From the NCBI GenBank assembly GCA_003602475.1, contig QQSC01000005.1, positions 1 through 63,102 of the forward strand: a stretch of DNA of 63,102 nt, written 5' to 3'. The number at the start of each line of letters is the position of its first letter. The stretch's first letter is position 1. Shown in pieces: positions 38,070 through 41,959 of the stretch. The position numbers and the translations under genes are program-made. The stretch comes from Candidatus Poseidoniales archaeon. Its GTDB lineage: Archaea > Thermoplasmatota > Poseidoniia > Poseidoniales > Poseidoniaceae. The notes below the pieces were generated by a model, which saw only the letters and a program-made list of their open reading frames with translations, made no database searches and was not told the DNA's origin.

Positions 38070-38528
38070 ATGGCACGTATGTACAAATCTCGAAAGGGCA
38101 CAAGCGGTTCAACCCGCCCGCACATTACGACCGCTCCTGAATGGTCGAACACCAACAAAGATGCCGTGACGGCCCTCGTTCTTGACCTCGCCAAGGCAGG
38201 ACACTCCAGTGCTGAAATTGGCACTGCACTACGCGACAAGCACGCTGTGCCCAACGCCCGCCTTGTTCTCGGGAAGCGAATCTCACAGGTTCTGGCTGAG
38301 CACGACATGCTCGGCACCTATCCAGAGGACATGATGAACCTCATGCGACAAGCTGTCGGCATCATCAATCATTTGGGCGCTGGCAACCACAAGGACATTC
38401 ACAACAAGCGAGCCCTTGAGATCACAGAGGCGAAAATTCGCCGTCTGGCCAACTACTACAAGAGCGAAGGTCACCTTCCATCCGACTGGCGATACAAGCG
38501 AGACGAACTTCGACTGATGGTCGAGTGA
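38070..38528 (+). CDS. rps15: 30S ribosomal protein S15 (uS15), archaeal type
   Basis: The product is 152 residues, typical of archaeal/eukaryotic uS15 (about 150, against 88 in bacteria). The N-terminal extension MARMYKSRKGTSGSTRP and the conserved S15 core LMRQAVGIINHLGAGNHKDIHNKRALEITEAKIRRLANYYK...WRYKRDELRLMVE are clear. It binds the central domain of 16S rRNA. It is followed after 57 bases by a likely RecJ/Cdc45-like gene, a neighbourhood seen in other euryarchaea. Confidence 0.97.
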   Translation: MARMYKSRKGTSGSTRPHITTAPEWSNTNKDAVTALVLDLAKAGHSSAEIGTALRDKHAVPNARLVLGKRISQVLAEHDMLGTYPEDMMNLMRQAVGIINHLGAGNHKDIHNKRALEITEAKIRRLANYYKSEGHLPSDWRYKRDELRLMVE

Positions 38529-38585: not shown

Positions 38586-39506
38586 ATGCGTGACCTTCTG
38601 TCCGTTCCAATGTTTGCTGACCTCGTGCAGCACTTGCGTTCACAAGCTGCGGCCCTCAATCGTGCACCGCTGTTGAACCTTCAGGCTCCTTCCTCATTGA
38701 GTGGCGTGTTGGCCATGGGTCAACTCGAAGCCGCTTGCCTTGATGCTGGCCTGATGTACAGTCGCCGGTTTTACCCTTCGCAATCCCACAGGCCGCGAGA
38801 CGAACCTCCTTCGATTGTTCGCGCCTCTCACGGTCTCACGGTGGCTTTGATGACGGAGGAATCAACGTGGACCAGCGACGAGGTAACTCTCGATGAAGGC
38901 GTGCGTTTGGTGCCCCTCGCTACATCCGTTTTGACAGGCGACACCAATAAAAATCTCCAAGGAGCTCTTGATGTGGTCGCACAAGCCGCAGCTTTAGCAG
39001 CCCTCTTGGCCCCCAACGGTCGCCGTGTACGTCTACTTCGCCCGATGGCCTCCCTGGGCATGTGGCTTGGCGGCTCGTTGGACACCAGCATGGACGTCTT
39101 TCACAACCTTATGATTCATCACTTGAATGAAGAAGGAACCCTGCGCCTGGTCCCCTTGCCTGAAGTGCTCGAACCGAAATCAGGCATGTTACCGAACGTC
39201 TCCGACCGTCGGGTGAAGAAACTCACCAAGGCTTGGGAGAAGATGAACGTTGAAGATCGAGCTCAGGCCATGAGCGAACTCACGCTGCCATGCTTGACCA
39301 ACACCACACTCTCCACACCGCGTCTTGAGTCGTTGATTTGGTGCAGAATGTTGGTCGGTGAAGAACCCGTGGATTTGGCCAGCCAACTCAGCTACCTGCA
39401 GAGCGAATGGCCTGAAGATGGAGCCGAGCAAAAACGTCACGCAAGCGACGTGTTGGACGGCTGGCTGGCCTCAGGAAGGTTGTGGTCAAGCCCAGCGACG
39501 GATTGA
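38586..39506 (+). CDS. Probable degenerate RecJ/Cdc45-like (DHH-fold) protein
   Basis: The product is 306 residues. The N-terminal segment RAPLLNLQAPSSLSGVLAMGQLEAACLDAGLMY (about 27-59) lies where archaeal RecJ/GAN proteins have the DHH motif (LLxHxDADGxxSGAIL), with the same pattern of strand, loop and helix, but the catalytic Asp/His residues are missing. The later stretch AALLAPNGRRVRLLRPMASLGMWLGGSLDT resembles the GAxGD segment of GAN, again without the acids. Position directly after uS15 matches the archaeal recJ neighbourhood. This suggests an inactivated homologue with a structural role like Cdc45 in the CMG helicase. Similarity is weak, so the call is inference. Confidence 0.5.
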   Translation: MRDLLSVPMFADLVQHLRSQAAALNRAPLLNLQAPSSLSGVLAMGQLEAACLDAGLMYSRRFYPSQSHRPRDEPPSIVRASHGLTVALMTEESTWTSDEVTLDEGVRLVPLATSVLTGDTNKNLQGALDVVAQAAALAALLAPNGRRVRLLRPMASLGMWLGGSLDTSMDVFHNLMIHHLNEEGTLRLVPLPEVLEPKSGMLPNVSDRRVKKLTKAWEKMNVEDRAQAMSELTLPCLTNTTLSTPRLESLIWCRMLVGEEPVDLASQLSYLQSEWPEDGAEQKRHASDVLDGWLASGRLWSSPATD

Positions 39507-39531: not shown

Positions 39532-39882
39532 ATGGCGATTGAACGACTTCTTACTGGTAGCATCCAAACCCAACTTAACGATCTCCTTTCAACCGAGGAT
39601 TTGGTCATTGAGGCATTTCGGGATCTCGTAAAGGACGAGCTCAAAGCTCATGTCCGTGCCAAGGTTGACGCAGACCCAGAACTCAAAGCCGAAATCAAGG
39701 AAGCTGTGGCGTATTATTTCCATTCCAAAGCACGGTCAATTTATGCTGAACTCAAAGCTACTCGGGCGGCGACACGTCTTGGTTTGCGCCTCCTTCCCGA
39801 CGACATCCAAGGGGAAGTTGGCAACGCACTTGTGACCTTGTTCGAAAAAGAATTGGGCGACCTTTTGGAAAAGGCCCTTTGA
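39532..39882 (+). CDS. Small alpha-helical protein of unknown function
   Basis: The start at 39532 (MAIERLLTGSIQTQL) is chosen 25 bases after the previous stop; the longer open frame overlaps that gene. The product is 116 residues, predicted nearly all helical and charged (LVIEAFRDLVKDELKAHVRAKVDADPELKAEIKEAVAYYFHSKARSIYAELKATRAATRLG), with no cysteine or membrane segment. It is cytosolic and probably co-transcribed with the RecJ-like gene. I recognise no family. Confidence 0.6.
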   Translation: MAIERLLTGSIQTQLNDLLSTEDLVIEAFRDLVKDELKAHVRAKVDADPELKAEIKEAVAYYFHSKARSIYAELKATRAATRLGLRLLPDDIQGEVGNALVTLFEKELGDLLEKAL

Positions 39883-39946
39883 GTCCGCTTCCGCCCACGA
39901 ATGAGTACAAGTTATGTGCTGAACTTTCCTCGGGAGAATGAGCATC

Positions 39947-41959
39947 ATGCGACGGACGGTAATTGTCAGTATGCTGCTGATGGCCACCGTATGGTTTCCC
40001 CTCTTCATTGGAACTGCTCAATCCGTGAACGACGGCGAATCTGTGGTGTGCTGTGATGCCGCAGAAGTGGATTTGTACCTCATCGGAAGCGACAGCAGTG
40101 CGACACTTACACCGTTTGCGAGTGAATTGGGTGACGACGTGCAGAGCATCGTGGTTGAATCCTCAGCCGTCGGCCAGGAAACCCTCGGTACGTGGTTGCT
40201 CCCAGACTTGTGGGAGGGCGCTGTTCCTGCTGGCGTATGGACATTTTCGCTGGAATACGAAGTTTCAGACGCTGCAGGTGTTCAAATCAACGCAACAGCC
40301 TCCATCAACATCGGTTCAAAGTCGTTTTCAGCCACCACAGACCCAGCATCTTCCTTCCTTGCTCAGGGAACTGGCACGTTGTCGTTCGACATTGATGTTG
40401 AAGCGTTCACGTCAAGCGGTAACTCGAACTTGGAACTGACCCTCACGGCCCAGACCATCGTGTTTGAGGTTCCCAACAGCGATGCATCGTTTGAATTGCT
40501 GTGGGGTACGGAGAACAAAGACTCCGCACTCAGCGCAACGATTCCACTTCTTGACATATGGATGATTGAGCCAGAGATCGAGGGTTCAGATGTCTACCTC
40601 GCCGTTCGATTGGATTCTCCATGGGGCTTGTCAACGCTTTCTCTCTCCGACTCGATATCGTTGCTGGTCAACGGACAGCCTGTCACGGGTGACCCAATCG
40701 AAACGGCATCCGACAATACGGTTAGAGTAACATGGACATGGGACGGAGCGGCTGGTGGCGTTGAAACCATTACTGTACAGGTGAAATTGGTGTTCCAACC
40801 CGATCAAACCGCATTAACTGGGTCATCGGTGTTCGAAATTGAAACCTTTGACACAGGGGGCGGCACCGGTACCTATTATCCGCCAGATGAACCGCTGCGC
40901 ACGGACGGCAGTGGCAGTCAATTGGACGTCAATATCCGCTCTGAATTGACCGGCGGAAGCAACAGCAATTTGGTGATGAAGACCACCACCGTAATCACCG
41001 TTCACGACGAAGTCGCCTTCTGGATGCGCTGGGGTTTGGATCACATTGGTGACGATGTGACGCCTCTATCCTCTACTCTCGGTGCTTTTTCAGCAGGTGG
41101 AGTCACCGATGATGACCGTATAAGTCGGGCCATTGAGGGGGTTGAAGTGGGTGAATTTGAGCGCCAAATGGTCAACCTCGGTCAACTGTTCTTAACCAAT
41201 GGACTTGGTTTGGACAGCGATGAATTGCTCGGCGATTTCCGTAACTTTGACCAACTGCAAATTGAACTTGACCTCATGGGTGAATCCAACGTTGTGAACC
41301 ACCCGGTTTCCATTGTGTTTTTGACCACAACCGAAGTACCGGACGGCGTGGCCATGAACTTCATTGAACAATTTGTGGTGTCCCAACCTGCTCCGATTTG
41401 GTCCTCGATCAACCTTGACGCCGAATATCGTTCCTCCATGCTCACCGCCATGACGAACAGCAAGTTGTTGAAATCAGACAACCTCCAGTTGTCCGTATCC
41501 CGTAGCCCCTTTGGGGACACGATTTCTCTTGTGGGAGAAGGGTTTGATCAGGACGAGAACTTTGCCCTCAACATCATCCCAACCTCGGCCATCACCTACG
41601 CCCCGATGCCGTTGGCCGTTCTTTCGCTGTTGGCCTGTATTGGCGCCATGGTCATTGGCCTACGTCTCTCACGAAACCGAATACGTACCTACCTGTACCT
41701 CGAACTTGTGCTGCTGCCGGTTATCGCTCTCATCTTCCTGTTTGGATTCCCACCAGTTTGGGTCGGCTCATCCATCGCCATCACGACTCTTCTTTGGTGG
41801 ATCACCGCTGTTGCAAGTCCGAAAACGGCTGTTCAACCGAGGCAGTGGCCCTCAATTTCTTGCCCCAAATGCAGCACTCCCAACCTCGTGGCGAGCGACG
41901 AGCGACCGTATCGATTGTCGTGCAGCGGATGCAGCCGAACCATCAAAATTGAAGGGTAA
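39947..41959 (+). CDS. Exported protein with C-terminal membrane helices and zinc ribbon
   Basis: The start at 39947 (MRRTVIVSMLLMATVWFPLF) is chosen because CGGGAGA lies 9 bases upstream; ATG 39938 is too near this site. The product is 670 residues. A signal peptide ends near TAQS. A beta-rich ectodomain of about 510 residues follows, then three membrane helices (about 550-630: PLAVLSLLACIGAMVIGL; YLELVLLPVIALIFLFGF; WVGSSIAITTLLWWITAV). The cytosolic end is a zinc ribbon CPKCSTPNLVASDERPYRLSCSGCSRTIKIEG with four Cys. The function is unknown; a surface receptor is possible. It is convergent with the CBS protein gene. Confidence 0.72.
   Translation: MRRTVIVSMLLMATVWFPLFIGTAQSVNDGESVVCCDAAEVDLYLIGSDSSATLTPFASELGDDVQSIVVESSAVGQETLGTWLLPDLWEGAVPAGVWTFSLEYEVSDAAGVQINATASINIGSKSFSATTDPASSFLAQGTGTLSFDIDVEAFTSSGNSNLELTLTAQTIVFEVPNSDASFELLWGTENKDSALSATIPLLDIWMIEPEIEGSDVYLAVRLDSPWGLSTLSLSDSISLLVNGQPVTGDPIETASDNTVRVTWTWDGAAGGVETITVQVKLVFQPDQTALTGSSVFEIETFDTGGGTGTYYPPDEPLRTDGSGSQLDVNIRSELTGGSNSNLVMKTTTVITVHDEVAFWMRWGLDHIGDDVTPLSSTLGAFSAGGVTDDDRISRAIEGVEVGEFERQMVNLGQLFLTNGLGLDSDELLGDFRNFDQLQIELDLMGESNVVNHPVSIVFLTTTEVPDGVAMNFIEQFVVSQPAPIWSSINLDAEYRSSMLTAMTNSKLLKSDNLQLSVSRSPFGDTISLVGEGFDQDENFALNIIPTSAITYAPMPLAVLSLLACIGAMVIGLRLSRNRIRTYLYLELVLLPVIALIFLFGFPPVWVGSSIAITTLLWWITAVASPKTAVQPRQWPSISCPKCSTPNLVASDERPYRLSCSGCSRTIKIEG

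Follow-up and report, generated by a model that had tools for sequence, protein, structure and literature searches.

A truncated RecJ/Cdc45-like protein without catalytic motifs, encoded beside uS15 in Poseidoniales

An open reading frame in the 63,102-nucleotide stretch of Poseidoniales DNA analyzed here (the window) encodes a 306-residue protein that, on the evidence of structure prediction and profile comparison, is a RecJ/DHH-fold protein stripped of its catalytic motifs. We think it probable that this protein is the form that the uS15-linked archaeal RecJ/GAN, the counterpart of Cdc45, takes in Poseidoniales, and that it serves as a non-enzymatic helicase scaffold. Cdc45 itself is an accessory component of the replicative DNA helicase. 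The features on which the argument draws are as follows.

38586..39506, + strand: Cdc45-like, predicted catalytically dead RecJ homologue without DHHA1, 306 aa (AlphaFold, Foldseek, hhalign)
38070..38528, + strand: uS15 ribosomal protein gene, the conserved upstream neighbor (Pfam; order conserved)
38586..39155, + strand: alpha/beta core of DHH type spanning roughly residues 1-190 (model secondary structure, collinear hhalign)
38682..38705, + strand: residues 33-40, QAPSSLSG, at the place where active RecJ carries catalytic motif I, HxDxDG (hhalign columns)
39054..39095, + strand: GAxGD-matching region LGMWLGGSLDTSMD, residues 157-170 (hhalign, column counts)
39183..39473, + strand: C-terminal part made up entirely of helices, roughly residues 200-296, matching approximately the CID region of GAN/Cdc45 (model, hhalign)
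39532-39882, + strand: 116-aa predicted protein, no Pfam match

The reading frame begins with ATG, and its relatives are widespread: a protein search found family members in 56 of 59 close genomes, and 94 of the 119 genomes of the class have one. Values of dN/dS between close orthologue pairs (0.04-0.14) indicate purifying selection. This distribution, the selection acting on the gene and the recurrence of its uS15 neighbor at the loci inspected argue that the frame is a real gene rather than a chance one. None of the Pfam and NCBIfam models recognizes the protein in direct HMM searches with it and its relatives, a profile search of PDB sequences with the same proteins returned nothing relevant, and a single-sequence scan of genome and viral contig collections found no relative. 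The two strings quoted in an earlier, sequence-only reading, LLNLQAPSSLSGVLAMGQLEAAC and LGMWLGGSLDT, correspond to residues 29-51 and 157-167, respectively.

Predicted structures identify the fold. An AlphaFold model built from an alignment of 43 relatives has a mean pLDDT of 92.4 and a pTM of 0.91, and in a Foldseek search of the PDB all of its top 21 matches are archaeal RecJ, GAN or RecJ-Cdc45 structures, ahead of bacterial RecJ and eukaryotic Cdc45; the best match is 5ghr_C, a 344-residue GAN chain (E 3.4e-6). A second model (pLDDT 90.0), whose input consisted solely of 16 members of the order's other family, again retrieves archaeal RecJ, GAN or RecJ-Cdc45 structures as 21/21 top matches, with Cdc45 and RecJ next. 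Global TM-scores are moderate (0.46-0.56 across the top 21 PDB matches), and sequence identity to solved archaeal RecJ proteins is 9-13%.

Profile-profile comparison points the same way. With hhalign, residues 11-269 align collinearly over 241 columns to residues 9-292 of an intact, uS15-linked RecJ (L085) from the sister family, f3 of the class, which we take to be Marine Group III. The score of 43.2 compares with a maximum of 20.4 across 60 controls, of which 59 were column shuffles and one a reversal, and the P-value of 5.9e-5 should be read alongside these controls, as several versions of the comparison were run. An earlier comparison with the phylum's other RecJ paralogues was weak (local P 0.005), whereas the uS15-linked paralogues gave a clear match. 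Identity near 10% and HMM searches that drew a blank in Pfam and among PDB sequences might suggest that the resemblance is a product of chance or modeling and that the fold is unrelated, but models made from two separate families give the same class of structure in all of their top 21 matches, the gene occupies the position of intact RecJ, and the profile match is independent of structure and far above its controls; we therefore regard such an artefact as extremely improbable. The RecJ/Cdc45-type relationship proposed in the sequence-only reading is thus borne out by structure, profile and synteny, and neither model lacks a DHH fold, the outcome named there as fatal to the proposal. The structural match anticipated there, a DHH/DHHA1 fold with altered catalytic sites, was found for the DHH/RecJ part and for the altered sites, but the DHHA1 domain is absent.

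Catalytic residues are missing where the alignments place them. The HYDCDGLTSSAIL motif of intact uS15-linked RecJ aligns to QAPSSLSGVLAM in the 306-residue protein, and the first of the quoted strings sits on this motif; across the 43 relatives, the motif I columns hold no conserved Asp or His. Further along, the AGACGD segment of intact RecJ aligns to the GMWLGG region, and within the GAxGD-matching region Trp160 and Asp170 are invariant. The letters DHH occur in only one of 123 relatives (L032), where they fall in the helical region rather than at motif III. Overall, the protein has none of the HxDxDG, DHH and GD motifs of active RecJ, as the sequence-only reading had said of the catalytic Asp and His residues, and its suggestion that LGMWLGGSLDT resembles the GAxGD segment also holds. 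To judge from these substitutions, nuclease activity has in practice probably been lost. Glu48, Asp53, Asp166, Asp170 and Glu193 are invariant or nearly so and could in principle form a rebuilt active site in a protein that is still an enzyme. Such acids can equally be explained by structure or binding, however, and with the aligned DHH motif positions lost and the DHHA1 lid missing, we consider a surviving enzyme very improbable.

The protein is also shorter than active RecJ. Its local alignment to L085 stops at residue 292 of that 447-aa protein, which carries DHHA1 at residues 371-441; the stem and the DHHA1 domain are therefore missing from the 306-aa protein, which stops short of both, and a GGH motif is present in 0 of 123 relatives. 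This loss, which the sequence-only reading did not mention, removes the parts of RecJ that close over single-stranded DNA. What follows the DHH-like core is a helical region, aligned collinearly in the profile comparison, that may correspond to the CMG-interacting domain (CID); matches to PF21763 (DHH_CID) are weak and below the cut-off, lying inside two relatives, and nothing in the class exceeds the cut-off of the CID model. The 116-aa downstream gene can be ruled out as a split-off DHHA1 domain, as it has no Pfam DHHA1 match and is not found at second-family loci; it is confined to the first family, where it accompanies the Cdc45-like gene or lies close to gltX. Beyond it, positions 39938-41959 (+) of the window encode a 673-aa protein, secreted or membrane-bound, that has no Pfam match and whose C-terminus resembles a CxxC zinc ribbon; its gene adjoins the locus across the order.

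Gene order links the Poseidoniales protein to its intact relatives. The upstream gene matches the Pfam models S13_N (1.7e-21) and S15 (6.8e-10) and is separated from the Cdc45-like gene by 57 bases. At the Poseidoniales loci inspected, the dead short protein directly adjoins uS15; in other Thermoplasmatota, intact RecJ adjoins uS15 in stretches holding both (16 listed); and in genus g22 of the sister family (L085-L088), uS15, an intact GAN-type RecJ and a TrmI-like methyltransferase occur together in 4/4 stretches. The Poseidoniales gene therefore lies in the orthologous place, consistent with the earlier observation that it follows uS15 as recJ-like genes do elsewhere. The sequence-only reading had also raised the question of an active RecJ elsewhere in the genome, and none of GAN type turned up among the Poseidoniales genomes examined: their DHH-family matches comprise NrnA-like proteins of 330-340 aa, NAD-domain-fused DHH proteins and a weak third type, all belonging to other subfamilies. 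Besides the GAN-type protein, two g22 entries (L122 and L123) carry another RecJ, of the bacterial type, ~555 aa long and with its motifs intact.

Several observations from other systems suggest what this protein might do. Makarova et al. 2012 (PMC3307487) used the uS15 context to recognize inactivated RecJ orthologues and suggested that these are structural subunits of the replication machinery. GAN and Cdc45 bind GINS51/Psf1 mainly via the DHH domain, and Cdc45 binds MCM via the CID (PMC5484177). Our preferred model is that a uS15-linked archaeal RecJ/GAN ancestor became a non-enzymatic scaffold in Poseidoniales, in which the DHH core would have kept its shape while losing its metal ligands, and the CID-like helical part would have been retained as the DNA-gripping stem and DHHA1 and the catalytic parts were dropped. 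By analogy with GAN and Cdc45, the retained DHH and CID-like parts could then bind GINS and MCM and act as a scaffold of the CMG helicase; we favor this role because the parts kept are the ones that make these contacts in the better-known proteins.

An alternative is that the protein descends from RecJ but works outside the replisome, its dead fold having been taken over for repair, RNA or ribosome-linked regulation. The fixed linkage to uS15 would fit this reading, although such linkage is the ancestral state of the replicative paralogue, both in the published analysis (PMC3307487) and at loci of this phylum. Clean loss of the gene in genus g7 and the failure to find GINS in this genome also favor a non-replisome role. 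No GINS was detected here with Pfam Sld5 or Gins51_C, models that are weak and insensitive in this phylum; three further genomes of the phylum likewise escaped Gins51_C, whose silence therefore says little. Neither the 322-aa PriS neighbor nor the 116-aa downstream protein, each considered as a GINS candidate, matches the sister-family GINS51. In Table 3 of Borrel et al. 2014 (PMC4153887), GINS51 of MG-II appears to be marked X (absent or unavailable), an entry for which the column assignment is our reading. Given that the kept parts are the GINS- and MCM-binding parts of GAN/Cdc45, we judge a role outside the replisome unlikely. Of the replisome function put forward in the sequence-only reading, the dead RecJ homologue next to uS15 stands, whereas the unfound GINS, sought with weak models, and the absence of the gene from g7 count against it; a role as helicase scaffold is likely rather than certain.

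Losses of the gene bear on how much the helicase could depend on it. In 4/4 genomes of genus g7 (G035, G049, G099 and G105; L077-L080), the Cdc45-like gene is absent from the locus, where uS15 and the following membrane-protein gene are adjacent with no room between them, and an alignment search, which lacked its own positive control, found no relocated copy. Unless it has moved and diverged, the gene cannot be essential in g7, making a strictly essential role doubtful. In genus g23 of the sister family (L081-L084), TrmI directly follows uS15 with no RecJ between them in 4/4 stretches, and the CID model search of the class lists no match for this genus; in two g23 genomes, a candidate GINS51 was detected (L174 and L175). 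Because these genomes are incomplete, both losses are best treated as leads. As a tentative and rather doubtful extension, Poseidoniales may have a minimal helicase whose Cdc45 consists of a dead DHH core plus CID, with g7 and, separately, g23 having dropped the uS15-linked RecJ/Cdc45 and g23 keeping GINS51, such that an archaeal CMG could work without a recognizable Cdc45.

More broadly, these results supply the missing case of a very abundant marine order, whose gene is named by none of the family models searched, and extend RecJ inactivation past the crenarchaeal and halobacterial examples. The truncation indicates the minimum that a Cdc45-like subunit may require, and nearby lineages without the gene allow a natural test of the need for Cdc45 in archaeal CMG. 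In the literature searched, we found no paper on Poseidoniales with RecJ or Cdc45, and loss of DHHA1 by truncation in a further inactivated archaeal RecJ found no description in the literature examined.

Compared with known systems, the protein most resembles the uS15-linked archaeal RecJ/GAN (arCOG00427_II; references T. kodakarensis GAN, PDB 5ghr/5ghs, and M. thermautotrophicus RecJ-Cdc45, 7bhi/7bih), sharing the overall fold of the DHH core and CID-like region, the position after uS15 and a collinear profile. Unlike these proteins, it lacks the catalytic motifs, stem and DHHA1, has 306 rather than about 450 residues and is near 10% identical. A dead DHH domain is shared with the inactivated RecJ proteins of Halobacteria (arCOG00428), Desulfurococcales (arCOG00432), Thermoproteales (arCOG05692) and Sulfolobales (RecJdbh, arCOG05902), and the same gene neighborhood with the first three of these. 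These inactivated orthologues have been proposed to be dedicated replication subunits, as we suggest for the Poseidoniales protein. The Thermoproteales family reportedly retains the majority of core DHHA1 elements, whereas the Poseidoniales protein has no DHHA1, and inactivation in Poseidoniales was probably separate from that in the other archaeal lineages. Eukaryotic Cdc45, which Foldseek finds after the archaeal proteins, is likewise a non-catalytic RecJ fold and has a CID, to which the helical part here may correspond, but it is much longer and retains DHHA1, whereas the Poseidoniales protein is shorter and does without this domain.
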